Assembly (NCBI GenBank): GCA_002356455.1
Contig: AP017968.1
Location: forward strand, 3,348,001-3,412,000
Length of the DNA stretch: 64,000 nt
Source: Fusobacterium varium
GTDB lineage: Bacteria > Fusobacteriota > Fusobacteriia > Fusobacteriales > Fusobacteriaceae
Reading direction: 5' to 3'
The notes beneath the pieces are model-generated. The model had not been told where the DNA came from. It saw only the letters and a program-made list of their open reading frames with translations, and ran no database searches. This document shows positions 40,344 to 52,024 of this stretch, in pieces (positions within the stretch are counted from its first letter, which is position 1; every line of letters begins with the position of its first letter). Position numbers and translations under genes: made by a program.

Positions 40344-40382
40344 ATAAAAGCATAAAAAAGACAATCAAAAAAGATTTCTTTT

Positions 40383-40502
40383 CTCTTCTTCCATCCAGAC
40401 TATACTGTCGGTTTTGGAATTACACCAAATCAAGACCAAAGGTCTTCGCGGACTTTTACCGCCGGTCGGGAATTACAAAATGCTCACCCTGCCCTGAAGA
40501 TA
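40383..40502 (-). ncRNA. FMN riboswitch (RFN element)
   Basis: The minus strand reads the classic RFN blocks in order: ATCTTCAGGGCAGGGTG, AATTCCCGACCGGCGGT, AAAAGTCCGCGA, GGTGTAATTCCAAAACCGAC, AGTATAGTCTGGATGG and AAGA closing the outer stem. It controls ribH-ribD-ribE-ribBA; excess FMN should favour the terminator downstream. Confidence 0.97.
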
Positions 40503-40529
40503 ATTTTTATTTAATTTCTCTACATAAAT

Positions 40530-44066: not shown

Positions 44067-44738
44067 CTACCCTAACTTTATATCTTCATTAGAATAATCC
44101 ATTTCAGTTATTCTTTCCAAGTTACTTGCAGCAGGTTCATAAGAGGAATCTAAAGCTAAAGCGGCACGATATTGCTTTTGGGCTTCTCCTATTTTCCCTT
44201 TGCATTCAGCAATCACTCCTAATAAATTATGTGCTTCTGGAGAATTAATGCTTTTCCCAATTGCTATTTTTAAAAGATTTTCTCCTTTTTCAAAATTTCT
44301 TCCAATTATATTCAGTTTTGCATATTCTATATAATCTTCATAAGTTTCAAGTTTTTCTTCTATTAATTCTTCTCTTGAAAATACTTTTTTTACTATTACC
44401 CTTATTTGTTCTGGAGTAAATGGTTTGCTTATAAAATCAATAGCATTTAATTTCATTGCTTCTACAGCTTCTTTTATAGTCCCATATGCAGTCATCATAA
44501 TAATATTAGTTTTATTTTCTGATGATCTTAATTTTCTCAAAACTTCCATTCCATCCATATCTGGCATTTTAATATCTAATAAAATCAAATCATAATTTTT
44601 TTTCTGTTCCAAAGTCATTTTTAATGCTTCTTCTCCATTAGATGCTGTTTCTATTTCAAAACCTTCAGCTGCTAAACAACAGTTTAGAGTGGTTCTTATA
44701 TTTTTTTCATCATCTGTAATCAATATCTTTTTTTTCAT
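44067..44738 (-). CDS. Response regulator with TPR output domain
   Basis: 223 residues. The receiver domain occupies 1-120: acidic pair DDEKN, phosphorylated Asp in LILLDIKMPDMDGM (about 54), Thr in MMTAYG and Lys in ISKPFT. The rest is two or three tetratricopeptide-like repeats (NSPEAHNLLGVIAECKGKIG, EAQKQYRAALALDSSYEP). There is no winged helix or other DNA-binding domain, unlike KdpE. Output is therefore probably by protein-protein contact. It overlaps the upstream receiver gene by 4 bases (ATGA). Confidence 0.9.
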   Translation of the reverse strand: MKKKILITDDEKNIRTTLNCCLAAEGFEIETASNGEEALKMTLEQKKNYDLILLDIKMPDMDGMEVLRKLRSSENKTNIIMMTAYGTIKEAVEAMKLNAIDFISKPFTPEQIRVIVKKVFSREELIEEKLETYEDYIEYAKLNIIGRNFEKGENLLKIAIGKSINSPEAHNLLGVIAECKGKIGEAQKQYRAALALDSSYEPAASNLERITEMDYSNEDIKLG

Positions 44739-45112
44739 TTTTCCCCCTTGCTTATATTCTTTTCAATAACATCTAATATTTCTTTTTTGCTAAAAGGTTT
44801 TAATATATACCCATCTCCTCCTGAATCAAAAGCTTCTTCTATATCATTTTCACCATGTTTTGAACTCATAAATATTATTGGAATTTCTTTAAGATCAACA
44901 TCACATCTTAGAGATCTGCATACAGAATATCCATCTGCTTTTGGTAAACATATATCCAATAATATTAAATCTGGTCTCAATTCTCCTGCTTTTCTTACAC
45001 CTTCTAAACTGTCAAAAGCAACAAAAACGTCATATCCCTCATTTCTTAACATCAAATTTAAAGTTAGTAGAATATTTTTTTCATCATCTATAATAAGAAT
45101 TTTTTTTGACAT
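44735..45112 (-). CDS. Stand-alone receiver domain (CheY-like)
   Basis: 125 residues, a single receiver domain: DDEKN at 9-13, phosphoacceptor Asp in LILLDICLPKADGYS (about 53), Ser in FMSSKHGE and Lys in ILKPFSKKE. No output domain. It may pass phosphate between the kinase and the TPR regulator or act as an allosteric partner. It follows the kinase gene by 19 bases. Confidence 0.92.
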   Translation of the reverse strand: MSKKILIIDDEKNILLTLNLMLRNEGYDVFVAFDSLEGVRKAGELRPDLILLDICLPKADGYSVCRSLRCDVDLKEIPIIFMSSKHGENDIEEAFDSGGDGYILKPFSKKEILDVIEKNISKGEK

Positions 45113-47061: not shown

Positions 47062-47195
47062 CAAACCCAGGCTCTTTTCAACGCTGACGAGGTTAGCTGA
47101 CGGGCTCGGATTGAAAAGTATCCTATTCCTAATGGAAATACGCCCCAAAATAATGGTTCCCCCGCTTTATTTAAAAAATAAACTAAGCGATTTGG
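47062..47195 (-). ncRNA. c-di-AMP riboswitch (ydaO-yuaA type)
   Basis: The minus strand carries the aptamer blocks in order: AATCGCTTAG, AAAGCGGGGGAACC, TTTTGGGGCGTATT, TAGGAATAGGATA, and TCCGAGCCCGTCAGCTAACC followed by TCGTCAGCG. These match the B. subtilis ydaO arrangement as I recall it, including the CGCTTAG start. The element leads into the sensor kinase operon, not the kdpFABC operon. Known members of the class turn gene expression off when c-di-AMP binds. Confidence 0.93.
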
Positions 47196-47218
47196 TATTA
47201 TTCAATTTTCATTTTCAG

Positions 47219-47325: not shown

Positions 47326-47353
47326 TTGACTTTTATGAGGAGTTAATGATAAT
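47326..47353 (+). promoter_or_regulatory. Promoter of the kdp operon
   Basis: TTGACT at 47326-47331, 16 bases, GATAAT at 47348-47353. It gives a leader of about 300 bases before kdpF containing a 26-codon ORF and three hairpins. TTGACTTTTAT here is the inverted copy of the block in the divergent promoter. Confidence 0.65.
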
Positions 47354-47379
47354 ATCCATAGCTATGAAACCTCTTTGTT

Positions 47380-47414
47380 AATAAAAATAATTTTTCACCA
47401 TTATTATTTTTATT
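47380..47414 (+). other. AT-only hairpin in the kdp leader
   Basis: AATAAAAATAAT and ATTATTTTTATT are exact 12-bp complements around an 11-base loop, just before the ribosome site of the 26-codon ORF. Low stability because all pairs are A-T. Confidence 0.45.
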
Positions 47415-47444
47415 TTAATTCTTTAATTGGAGGTGTTTAATAAC

Positions 47445-47525
47445 ATGATAAAATTATTTTCTTTACTATCAGCTGCTCTTTTTGTCTTAATATTTTTTTA
47501 TATTTTGAGATTTTTAGTTTTTTAA
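47445..47525 (+). CDS. 26-codon hydrophobic ORF in the kdp leader
   Basis: ATG at 47445 with GGAGGTG 9 bases upstream, TAA at 47523-47525. The peptide (MIKLFSLLSAALFVL...) is one membrane-spanning helix rich in Leu and Phe. A perfect 10-bp hairpin (47504-47533) overlaps its last codons and stop. It may be a second small Kdp-type membrane peptide or a leader peptide coupling translation to read-through into kdpFABC. Not a recognised family. Confidence 0.55.
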   Translation: MIKLFSLLSAALFVLIFFYILRFLVF

Positions 47526-47533
47526 ATCTCAAA
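47504..47533 (+). terminator. Hairpin across the end of the leader ORF
   Basis: TTTGAGATTT and AAATCTCAAA are exact complements with a 10-base loop, followed by TATTTTT. The arm starts within the last codons of the 26-codon ORF, so a translating ribosome would prevent pairing. Confidence 0.6.
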
Positions 47534-47580
47534 TATTTTTAAGCATTAACAGCAGTTTTTGTTTTGTCTATTTTTGTCAA

Positions 47581-47616
47581 AAAAATAGTATTTTCATATA
47601 TAAAAATACTATTTTT
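47581..47616 (+). terminator. Second hairpin before kdpF
   Basis: AAAAATAGTATTTT and AAAATACTATTTTT are exact 14-bp complements with an 8-base loop, followed by AAAATATTTTTATATTTTT. It lies 43 bases before the kdpF start and looks like a terminator or attenuator. Confidence 0.6.
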
Positions 47617-47659
47617 AAAATATTTTTATATTTTTATAAATATTAAGGAGGAAGGGAAA

Positions 47660-47737
47660 ATGATAATTTTAGGTGTCATTATATTTTTTTTGTTTTGTTA
47701 TTTATTTTATGCTTTATTTAAACCAGAAAAATTTTAG
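47660..47737 (+). CDS. kdpF: KdpF, small subunit of the K+-transporting ATPase
   Basis: 25 codons, ATG at 47660 with AAGGAGGAAGGG upstream. One membrane helix ending YLFYALFKPEKF, which matches the (Y)ALxxPExF tail of KdpF. It stabilises the KdpABC complex. It ends 13 bases before kdpA. Confidence 0.9.
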   Translation: MIILGVIIFFLFCYLFYALFKPEKF

Positions 47738-47750
47738 GGAGGGATTTTAG

Positions 47751-49376
47751 ATGTCTTTATTAAATGTATTTATTTTTCTTATTGTTTTTATTTTATTGAT
47801 AATTCCTGTTGGAAAACATATATCAAAATTGATTTTACATGAAAAAACAATTTTTGATTCTTTATTTTCTAAAATGGAAAAAATTATATTTAAAGTTACA
47901 GGAAATGAAAATATGAGTCTTAAAACTTATATTACAGCCTTTTTAGGAACTAACTTAATTATGCTTATTTTAACATATATTATTCTAGGTTTAGATGGTT
48001 CTTCTCCTTCTCTGGCTTTTAATACAGCAGTAAGTTTTGTTACTAATACAAATTTACAGCATTATTCTGGTGAATGGTTAAATGGAATAATATCTAGGTT
48101 AGCTTTAATAAATCTGATGTTTACATCTGCAGCAAGCGGTCTTGCTATATCTATGGCGATTATTAGAGGAATATTAAAAATCAGATTAGGGAATTTCTTT
48201 GAAGATTTAACAAAGTCTATGACAAGACTATTACTTCCTTTATCAATAATTGTTGCAGTTTCTTTGGTTATTTTAGGTACTCCCCAAACTTTTGATACTC
48301 AGATAATAGTAAAAACAATAGAAGGTCAATATCAAGTAATTACTTTAGGACCTTCAGCTGCCTGGGAAGCTATAAAACATTTAGGTACAAATGGTGGTGG
48401 AATTTTTTCAGCTAATTCGTCACATCCTTTTGAAAATATTTCATTATATACAAATTATATTGAAATGATGTGCATGATGATTATTCCAGGGTCTACTATT
48501 ATAGGATTTGGAATGGCTGCTAAAAATAAAAAACAAGGTTGGTTCATATTTTTACCAATATTTGCTTTATTTCTTTTCTCTTTTTTCATGTTATATCACT
48601 TTGAAAAACAAGGAGTTCCATTGTTTTCACAATATGGAATAAATGGTATTAATATGGAAGGTAAAGAAATGAGATTCGGCCTCATCGCTTCGATTTTATT
48701 TACAGATATAACAACATCCTTTACAACAGGAAGTGTTAATAACATGCATGACTCTTTAACTCCAATAGCTGGAATGATGCCTTTATGGAATATGATGCTG
48801 AATTGCATATTTGGAGGAAAAGGTGTTGGATTTATGAATATCATTATGTATATGATGTTTGGAGTATTCTTATGTGGACTTATGGTTGGAAGAACTCCTG
48901 AATTCTTTGGAAAAAAACTTGAAGCTAAAGAAATGCAGATAATAACATTTTTAATATTAATTCACCCAATTATAATATTAGTTCCCAGTGCTGTATCTCT
49001 TATCAGTGATTTAGGTGTTTCTGGAATTACAAATTCTGGATTCCATGGAATATCTCAAGTGCTGTATGAGTACACTTCAAGTGCTGCTAATAATGGTTCT
49101 GGATTTGAAGGTCTTGGAGATGGAACTACATTTTGGAATATAATGACAGGAATAGTAATGCTTTTAGGAAGATATATAAGTATGATATTAATGACAGTAG
49201 TTGGATATTCACTTTATAAAAAACAACCTGTTCCTGTTAATGCATCAACATTTAAAACAGATAATCTGACTTTTTCTTTTATTTTATTTTTTATAATTTT
49301 GATAATTGGTGCTCTTACATTTTTACCTGCTTTGGCTTTGGGACCTATTGCTGAGCATTTGAGTATCTGGGGGTAA
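47751..49376 (+). CDS. kdpA: KdpA, potassium-binding and translocating subunit
   Basis: 541 residues with about ten membrane helices. The selectivity-filter-like loops are visible: NTAVSFVTNTNLQHYSGE, GPSAAWEAIKHLGTNGGG and the later NNGSGFEGLGDGT stretch. GGGAGGG precedes the ATG. First large gene of kdpFABC, and 6 bases from kdpB. Confidence 0.97.
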   Translation: MSLLNVFIFLIVFILLIIPVGKHISKLILHEKTIFDSLFSKMEKIIFKVTGNENMSLKTYITAFLGTNLIMLILTYIILGLDGSSPSLAFNTAVSFVTNTNLQHYSGEWLNGIISRLALINLMFTSAASGLAISMAIIRGILKIRLGNFFEDLTKSMTRLLLPLSIIVAVSLVILGTPQTFDTQIIVKTIEGQYQVITLGPSAAWEAIKHLGTNGGGIFSANSSHPFENISLYTNYIEMMCMMIIPGSTIIGFGMAAKNKKQGWFIFLPIFALFLFSFFMLYHFEKQGVPLFSQYGINGINMEGKEMRFGLIASILFTDITTSFTTGSVNNMHDSLTPIAGMMPLWNMMLNCIFGGKGVGFMNIIMYMMFGVFLCGLMVGRTPEFFGKKLEAKEMQIITFLILIHPIIILVPSAVSLISDLGVSGITNSGFHGISQVLYEYTSSAANNGSGFEGLGDGTTFWNIMTGIVMLLGRYISMILMTVVGYSLYKKQPVPVNASTFKTDNLTFSFILFFIILIIGALTFLPALALGPIAEHLSIWG

Positions 49377-49382
49377 TTAACT

Positions 49383-51437
49383 ATGAGTAAAAAACAAATT
49401 AAATCTTTTTCTAAAGATATAATAAATAAAGCTTTAATTGATTCTTTTAAAAAATTTAATCCTAGAATTTTGATTAAAAATCCTGTTATATTTGTTGTTG
49501 AAATAGGTTTTTTTCTAACATTAATTTTAACTGTCAATCCTACATTATTTACAGAAAATGAAGCTGATTTGAGAATGTTCAATGGAATTATTTCGTTTAT
49601 TCTTTTTATCACTGTAATATTTGCAAACTTTGCTGAATCAATTGCTGAAGGGAGAGGAAAAGCACAAGCTGACAGTTTGAAAAAAACCAGAAAAGAAACT
49701 TCTGCTAATCTTTTAAAAGAAGATAACAGTATAGAAAAGGTTGATGCTGGTTCCCTGAAAAAAGGAGATATTGTTATCGTAAATACTGGAGAACTTATTC
49801 CAAATGATGGAGTTGTTATTGAAGGGATAGCATCTGTAGATGAATCAGCTATTACAGGAGAGTCTGCCCCTGTTATCAAAGAAGCTGGTGGAGATTTTTC
49901 ATCAGTTACTGGAGGAACTCGTGTTGTTAGTGATAAAATTAAGGTTCAAATATCTGTTTCTAGCGGAGAATCTTTCCTTGATAAAATGATTAGTCTTGTT
50001 GAAGGAGCTGAGAGAAAGAAAACTCCTAATGAAATTGCTCTGAATACTGTATTGGTTGGTTTGACTCTTATATTTTTAGTGGTTATTGTAACTTTATTTC
50101 CAATGGGATTATATGCTGGAGTTCATCTTCCTTTATCTACACTTATTGCTCTGCTTGTCTGTTTAATTCCAACTACTATTGGAGGGCTGCTTTCAGCCAT
50201 AGGTATAGCTGGTATGGATAGAGTAAATAAATTTAATGTCATTGCTATGTCTGGTAAAGCTGTTGAAACTTGTGGTGATATTAATACAATTATTTTAGAT
50301 AAAACAGGAACTATTACATTTGGTAATAGACTTGCTGATGAATTTTTCCCTGTAAAAGGAATTCCTAAAGATGAAATGATAGAATATTCTGCTATTTCTT
50401 CATTAAAAGACTTAACTCCAGAAGGAAGGTCTATTGTAGAATTAAGTAAAAAATTTGGTGTCATTTTAACTGAAAAAGATTTTGATAAAGCTGAATTTAT
50501 TGATTTTAGTGCTCAAACAAAAACCAGTGGAATTAATCTAGAAAATGGTCAAAAAATTAGAAAAGGTTCAGGTTCTTCAATTAAAAAATTTGTTCAGGAA
50601 CAAAATGGACCCATTCCTAAAGATCTTGATAGTATAATTGATAAAATTTCAAGACTTGGTGGAACTCCTTTGGTGCTTGCTGTTGACAGTAAAATTTATG
50701 GTGTTATTTATTTAAAGGACACAGTTAAACCAGGATTAAAGGAAAGGTTTAATAATATAAGGAAAATGGGAATCAAAACTATTATGTGTACTGGAGATAA
50801 TCCTCTAACTGCTGAAACAATAGCTAAAGAAGCTGGAATAGATGAATTTGTAGCTGAATGTACACCAGAAGAAAAAATTGAAGTTATAAAAAGAGAACAA
50901 TCTCAAGGTAAATTAGTAGCTATGACAGGAGATGGAACTAATGATGCTCCTGCACTTGCACAAGCTGATGTAGGTATTGCAATGAACAGTGGTACTATTG
51001 CTGCTAAAGAAGCTGCTAATATGGTAGATTTAGATTCTAATCCTACAAAAATTCTTGAAGTTGTAGAAATAGGTAAGCAATTGCTAATAACTCGTGGGGC
51101 TCTTACTACATTCAGTATAGCCAATGATGTTGCGAAATACTTTGCTATTATCCCTGCTATGTTTATAACTGCTATTCCACAGATGGAGAAACTTAATATT
51201 ATGCATCTTTCTTCACCTATAAGTGCAATAATTTCAGCATTAATATTTAATGCAATCATTATTCCGCTCCTAGTTCCAATTGCACTAAAAGGAGTTAAAT
51301 ATAAACCTATGAATGTACAAATAATGCTGCTTAAAAATTTAGGTATATATGGACTTGGTGGAATTATAGTTCCATTTATTGGAATAAAATTAATTGATTT
51401 AATCGTTACTCCATTCCTTTCAATTTTAGGAATGTAA
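49383..51437 (+). CDS. kdpB: KdpB, P-type ATPase subunit
   Basis: 684 residues. TGES-type actuator motif [15 protein letters not shown] (about 157-171), phosphorylated Asp in [12 protein letters not shown] (about 303), the nucleotide-binding [10 protein letters not shown] and the hinge [18 protein letters not shown]. Seven membrane segments in the usual order. It couples ATP hydrolysis to potassium uptake through KdpA. Confidence 0.98.
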
Positions 51438-51454: not shown

Positions 51455-52024
51455 ATGAACTTAATAAAAAAGGGTATTCATATTACTATCGTTCTATTTA
51501 TAATTGCTGCTGTTTATACAGTTATAATAAATATCTTTGCTCAGACATTCTTTAAAGATAGTGCAAATGGAAGCATTATTTATAAAAATGGACAAGCCAT
51601 AGGAAGTAAATATATAGGCCAGCTTTTTACAAGTGAAAAATATTTTCACGGAAGACCATCAGCTTATAATTATAATACATATAACTCTAATGGAGAAGCT
51701 GAAACACTTCCCGCTTCTGGAGGTTCAAACTTAGCAATAAGTAATCCCACATATTCTGAAAATTTAAAAAATAGAATTGAAAAACTTTTAAATGACAATC
51801 CAGAATTAAAAACTAAAGAAATTCCTGTTGATATGGTAACGACTTCTGGTTCAGGAGTTGATCCTAATATATCAATTCAAGGTGCAATGATACAAACTAA
51901 AAGAATTGCTAAAGCTAATAATATTCCTGAAGAAAAAATCATAGAATTAATAAAAAATAATATAAATAATAATATGATTAATGTTTTAGAATTAAACTTA
52001 GCTTTAAATGAATTAGTAAAATAG
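51455..52024 (+). CDS. kdpC: KdpC, accessory subunit of the K+-transporting ATPase
   Basis: 189 residues with one N-terminal membrane helix and a periplasmic domain including GSKYIGQLFTSEKYFHGRPSAYNY and the VTTSGSGVDPNISIQGAMIQ motif typical of the family. AGGAGG precedes the ATG. Last gene of kdpFABC, followed by a strong terminator. Confidence 0.96.
   Translation: MNLIKKGIHITIVLFIIAAVYTVIINIFAQTFFKDSANGSIIYKNGQAIGSKYIGQLFTSEKYFHGRPSAYNYNTYNSNGEAETLPASGGSNLAISNPTYSENLKNRIEKLLNDNPELKTKEIPVDMVTTSGSGVDPNISIQGAMIQTKRIAKANNIPEEKIIELIKNNINNNMINVLELNLALNELVK

Follow-up and report, generated by a model that had tools for sequence, protein, structure and literature searches.

A conserved putative terminator in the kdp leader of Fusobacterium and its possible control by translation of a leader ORF

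The potassium pump Kdp is usually presented as controlled at its promoter by KdpD and KdpE. In the Fusobacterium genomes compared here, Kdp lies beside regulators without a DNA-binding domain, or beside the sensor half of KdpD only, which raises the question of how the pump is switched. We analysed a window (the whole stretch of DNA studied, 64,000 nucleotides) of a 4.12 Mb Fusobacterium genome, coded G000, and compared its kdp leader with those of seven other Fusobacterium genomes (G001, G002, G006, G007, G009, G010 and G011). The operon runs on the plus strand in the order kdpF-kdpA-kdpB-kdpC. The ribosome site AAGGAGG and kdpF, which encodes 25 residues (Pfam PF09604, E 6.7e-8), occupy 47645-47737 with KdpF at 47660, followed by kdpA (47751-49376, PF03814), kdpB (49383-51437, assigned by translation and position) and kdpC (51455-52024, PF02669). 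The kdpA gene of G001 (L009/L010, C1:139982-141603) is split into two overlapping reading-frame pieces, one of them with a stop, reflecting either a frameshift or an assembly error. A divergent operon is preceded by a c-di-AMP riboswitch (47067-47199, minus strand, Rfam match of 98 bits) that stands back to back with the kdp promoter. The operon encodes a histidine kinase, a protein with a receiver domain alone, a receiver-TPR protein and a KdpD of 380 residues with the sensor and Usp domains only; the riboswitch is placed likewise at the other seven kdp loci examined in the genus. The two response regulators beside kdp, receiver alone and receiver plus TPR (44067-45112, minus strand), both lack a DNA-binding output domain in a Pfam domain search. 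The interval from kdp to the KdpD gene in G010 was found to hold neither a histidine kinase nor a response regulator. Elsewhere in the window, an FMN riboswitch lies on the minus strand at 40379-40505 (108 bits).

Transcription of kdp probably starts near 47361-47363, downstream of a plus-strand promoter located by consensus scan at 47326-47355, with the -35 element TTGACT (47326-47331), an 18-nt spacer and the extended -10 element TAATAT (47350-47355). A promoter of the same type is present at the matching place in all eight aligned leaders. The 5' part of the RNA carries an anti-Shine-Dalgarno-like ACCUCU (47369-47374), kept as CCUCU or CCCUUU near the RNA 5' end in 8/8 leaders, and then an AU-only hairpin at about 47377-47413, which was found by folding and is conserved in the four closest genomes. 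It is followed on the same strand by a ribosome site GGAGGU (47429-47434) and a leader ORF of 26 codons plus stop (MIKLFSLLSAALFVLIFFYILRFLVF, 47445-47525). The promoter upstream of the leader, an AT hairpin (placed at 47380-47414) and the 26-codon ORF with its ribosome site had all been claimed in an earlier note on this DNA, and each of them was borne out by the analysis.

The firmest result is a conserved, putative intrinsic terminator between the promoter and kdpF. In the window it is an 85-nt hairpin on the plus strand (47472-47556), whose GC-containing base pairs GCUGCU (47472-47477) with AGCAGU (47551-47556) and runs directly into TTTTTGTTTTG, with the U-tract at 47556-47566. The hairpin is long and AU-rich, with only four G-C pairs in its base, and has an energy of -19.5 kcal/mol (z -4.6). 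When every T-tract in the window was checked for a closed hairpin just upstream, it ranked 14th of 1253. The terminator arms of the eight leaders were compared by hand; in the MAFFT alignment the GCAG arm of G006 is misplaced, and pair counts from that alignment are therefore left out. The base and the U-tract are kept in 8/8 leaders, whereas the sequence between the arms has widely diverged. The base reads AGCTGCT/AGCAGTT in G000, G007 and G001, ACTGCT/AGCAGT in G002, AACTGTTTG/CAAGCAGTT in G006, AAACTGTTTT/AAAAGCAGTTT in G009 and AAACTGTTTTTT..GGGGCAGTTT or GGAGCAGTTT in G010 and G011, followed by a T-rich tract in each case. Energies range from -14.6 to -24.4 kcal/mol, with z of -4.1 to -6.5 against shuffles, in the seven leaders tested (G007 is identical to G000 here). 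The substitutions in G001 and G002 leave the hairpin as stable as before or make it more so, and random changes did as well with P of 0.056 for G001 and 0.0135 for G002. With up to two mismatches, the motif AAGCAGTTTTTATTTTGC has few matches elsewhere in the genus; both matches inspected for AGCAGTTTTT at other sites proved to lie inside unrelated coding sequence and were discarded.

Could such a fold belong to an ordinary 5' UTR, its hairpins serving RNA stability or translation of kdpF, with the terminator itself unused and regulation exerted at the promoter? AT-rich sequence forms many hairpins, and 3 of 300 shuffled leaders (1%) matched the energy of the hairpin 47472-47556. However, the recurrence of one base and U-tract in eight leaders, and folding energies below those of shuffles in every leader tested, make this explanation very unlikely.

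The terminator overlaps the leader ORF. Its 5' arm GCUGCU corresponds to codons 10-11, and its tip, a hairpin TTGAGATTTTTAG..AAATCTCAA at 47505-47532 on the plus strand, spans the last ORF codons and the stop. The earlier note had described a perfect hairpin across the last codons (47504-47533); that hairpin is present, but it forms the tip of the larger and much stronger structure at 47472-47556. In G006, an 8-bp hairpin of differing sequence (GCAAGAUU/AAUUUUGC) occupies the same place. The ORF is carried by a clade of five genomes, comprising G000, three genomes with 86-94% identity to the window (G001, G002 and G007) and G006 as the sole distant member. ORF, ribosome site, frame and stop persist in 5/5 of them; in G006 the ORF is 23 codons long and shows a single in-frame 9-nt gap. 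Among shuffled leaders, 37% contain an ORF of 20 codons or more, and 0.3% contain one that also has a ribosome site.

The overlap may be read in another way, with the ORF encoding a second small Kdp-associated membrane peptide that acts as a protein, similar to KdpF, and with the terminator as a separate attenuator or a chance overlap. The product is very hydrophobic (GRAVY 2.29) and resembles KdpF-type peptides in its length of about 25 residues, its single hydrophobic span and its place before kdpA. In a profile search of 12 genomes of the genus, convincing peptide matches were confined to kdp, one per genome in the ORF clade and two in G009. The latter are encoded by two tandem ORFs of 21-22 residues, hydrophobic and with good ribosome sites, between the terminator and kdpF (L005, 1189-1353), and their peptides end in a common [KR][FI]x[VIA]F. 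They group with the clade ORF peptides as one weak kdp-only family, although the profile was made from these same peptides, whose own scores are therefore expected. The kdp operon of Clostridium acetobutylicum also reportedly begins with two small ORFs for hydrophobic peptides. On the other hand, any frame of such T-rich DNA is hydrophobic, and no peptide of this kind accompanies Kdp in G010 and G011. Against Pfam, the 26-residue peptide gave no PF09604 match and only PF10960 at E 0.38, below the cut-off; searches for relatives of the peptide on plasmids and of the leader in phages found none.

The pattern of change in the ORF does not look like that of a protein gene, as far as these few sequences indicate. 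Relative to G006, codon positions 1/2/3 carry 11/8/7 substitutions and 0 of 16 changed codons are synonymous, a small sample, whereas the control kdpF, which is similar in size and composition, shows 2/3/13 with 8 of 15 changed codons synonymous. The excess of synonymous or third-position change seen in kdpF was thus absent from the ORF in this small comparison, and the peptide differs from KdpF in lacking such coding conservation. The ORF has 7 nucleotide changes among the four close genomes, of which 4 alter the protein. Its second half is invariant there, at 42 of 42 columns where kdpF has 69 of 78, a pattern that fits an RNA stem rather than a peptide. A weak protein signal is nevertheless seen in the C-terminal 20 residues, whose similarity to G006 exceeds that of shuffles with P of 0.025. 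In sum, the comparison of ORF codons with hairpin sequence in relatives, which the earlier note had suggested as a check, gave no coding constraint against G006 alongside a terminator base and U-tract kept throughout, and we consider a peptide acting as a protein possible but on the unlikely side.

Initiation at the ORF may itself be controlled by the fold of the leader. The whole leader folded better than every one of 100 dinucleotide shuffles (z -3.8). For G000, G001 and G002, the minimum fold pairs GGAGGU with its predicted partner ACCUCU, with a pairing probability of the Shine-Dalgarno sequence of 0.9-1.0, and the AU-only hairpin would bring the two elements close to each other. For G007 and G006, the minimum fold pairs the Shine-Dalgarno sequence with bases other than ACCUCU. 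The ribosome site is predicted to be mostly paired in all five clade genomes and is probably masked by RNA pairing, and therefore initiation at the ORF is likely to be limited.

Folding with a ribosome footprint indicated how translation might act on the terminator. With the P site at about codons 7-16 the terminator stem is abolished, whereas with the P site at codons 1-4, 19-25 or the stop it is left intact; the footprint was placed one base downstream of the true frame, which has no consequence for the result. We infer the direction, the trigger and the K+ link of the attenuator as follows. RNA polymerase starting from the conserved promoter would meet the intrinsic terminator (47472-47566) before kdpF. 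If the ORF is not initiated, the terminator would form and kdpFABC would stay off. Ribosomes entering the ORF, or slowed in its first two thirds, would let RNA polymerase read through. Low K+ could, speculatively, slow the ribosomes, which need K+, or loosen the AU-rich helix that hides the ribosome site.

Control of kdp termination by the leader ORF is a plausible device, and attenuation coupled to the ORF is the leading explanation, because a predicted terminator overlapping a translatable ORF is supported across species. Sequence and folding place an intrinsic terminator before the first structural gene and, in five genomes, its 5' arm within an ORF preceded by a Shine-Dalgarno sequence. 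Several points stand against it, namely that G006 alone provides distant support for the ORF, that the terminator hairpin is long and AU-rich with so few G-C pairs in its base, that the partners masking the Shine-Dalgarno sequence differ between species, and that the ORF is missing before the terminator of G009-G011. On balance, we give about even odds to the view that the kdp leader attenuates transcription under the control of leader-ORF translation. The earlier note had called the device peptide-coupled attenuation. The overlap of a putative terminator with a translatable ORF is supported, but the structures had been misnamed, the main one being 47472-47556, and the peptide showed no sign of selection in the comparison with G006. 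As the peptide sequence is apparently unselected there, "peptide-coupled" appears a weaker description than "translation-coupled". Inspection of the ORF for regulatory codons or an arrest motif found no run of related codons, and the peptide sequence is not conserved against G006; some ribosome-mediated attenuators lack regulatory codons.

The leaders of G009, G010 and G011, the F. mortiferum group, keep the terminator with no clear ORF before it. In its place they have an unrelated 80-nt element (L006 about 1261-1345 in G010, L005 in G009, L007 in G011) that overlaps the terminator and is near-invariant, with only three differences between G009 and G010. The element is closed by the stem GTTTATT/AATAAAC, which overlaps the terminator 5' arm; formation of a competing hairpin, AAGUUUAUUC..GAGUUAAUUU, would free it. 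Across 98 genomes of the phylum, core and full-length matches were found only at kdp, and a search of Rfam matched no family. From its predicted folds, the element is a candidate for a second attenuator acting on the same terminator, possibly bistable, and a candidate new RNA regulator.

These leaders bear on a further alternative, an attenuator under an RNA-binding protein or a ligand, in which the clades share the terminator but have different sensors, with the ORF only incidental. A near-invariant element with its stem over the terminator 5' arm and no clear ORF would suit such a sensor, and the adjoining response regulators without a DNA-binding domain make an RNA target conceivable. We consider it improbable, as no locus gave a credible Rfam match except for the divergent c-di-AMP riboswitch, and the ORF with its Shine-Dalgarno sequence is kept throughout its clade and rare in shuffled leaders. 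A known riboswitch in the kdp leader itself was discarded: in nine loci, Rfam models matched nothing on the kdp strand of the leader with E values up to 5. Returning to translation-coupled attenuation, its fullest form would be that the attenuator reads K+ through ribosome speed or helix stability, and that the genus has retained one terminator but swapped the sensing half, with a leader ORF in one clade and a previously undescribed bistable RNA of 80 nt in the F. mortiferum group. This fuller scheme is doubtful at present. If eight species shared a terminator to which different upstream sensors can be fitted, the question of how the pump is switched would have a clear and testable answer.

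Attenuation of kdp as such is already published and is not new. In Bacillus thuringiensis, a c-di-AMP (ydaO/yuaA) riboswitch attenuates kdpFABC (PMC6488665). Similar to that system, the locus described here has a leader terminator that would control kdpFABC and a KdpD reduced to its N-terminal part, but its c-di-AMP riboswitch precedes the divergent sensor operon instead of kdp, and the kdp leader is without an Rfam match. For Caulobacter crescentus, kdpF is suspected to be subject to Rho-dependent attenuation, and something similar has been suggested for E. coli (PMC8552747). That case and the present one have in common that transcription would end prematurely near the start of the kdp operon; no intrinsic terminator was found in Caulobacter, whereas here a putative one overlaps the leader ORF. 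The B. subtilis bmrB-bmrCD (PMC4191407) and mef/mel (PMC4335068) leaders are alike in that a short ORF occupied by a ribosome is expected to keep an intrinsic terminator from forming ahead of a transporter operon; they differ in responding to ribosome-acting antibiotics and in that attenuation was tested there by experiment, whereas the present case is a prediction from sequence. The literature searched yielded no case of an intrinsic terminator that overlaps a leader ORF at kdp. Ribosome-dependent attenuation at kdp would be a new variant if the translation dependence holds, and would couple potassium uptake to ribosome function in a novel manner.

Between the terminator and kdpF lies a 14-bp AU palindrome, TAGTATTTT..AAAATACTA (47582-47616, plus strand), which the earlier note had taken as a second terminator (47581-47616). 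It folds as described, but makes a doubtful terminator, with one G-C pair and -9.9 kcal/mol, and it is not specific to kdp. The palindrome has a mismatch in G006 and is absent from the G010 and G011 leaders. It was rejected as the main terminator, being weaker, missing in two species and having a near copy at a non-kdp site. The core TAGTATTTTN8AAAATACTA is at 47586-47611, and three sites in the genome match TAGTATTTTN(3-14)AAAATACTA. The near copy (C1:3057508-3057533) falls in the intergenic region that separates comM from a transporter gene, which inspection suggests to be citrate-type, and is located upstream of the promoter of the transporter gene; it is also present in G001, and in G007 with another centre. 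The palindrome common to the kdp leader and the comM/transporter region is a possible operator.
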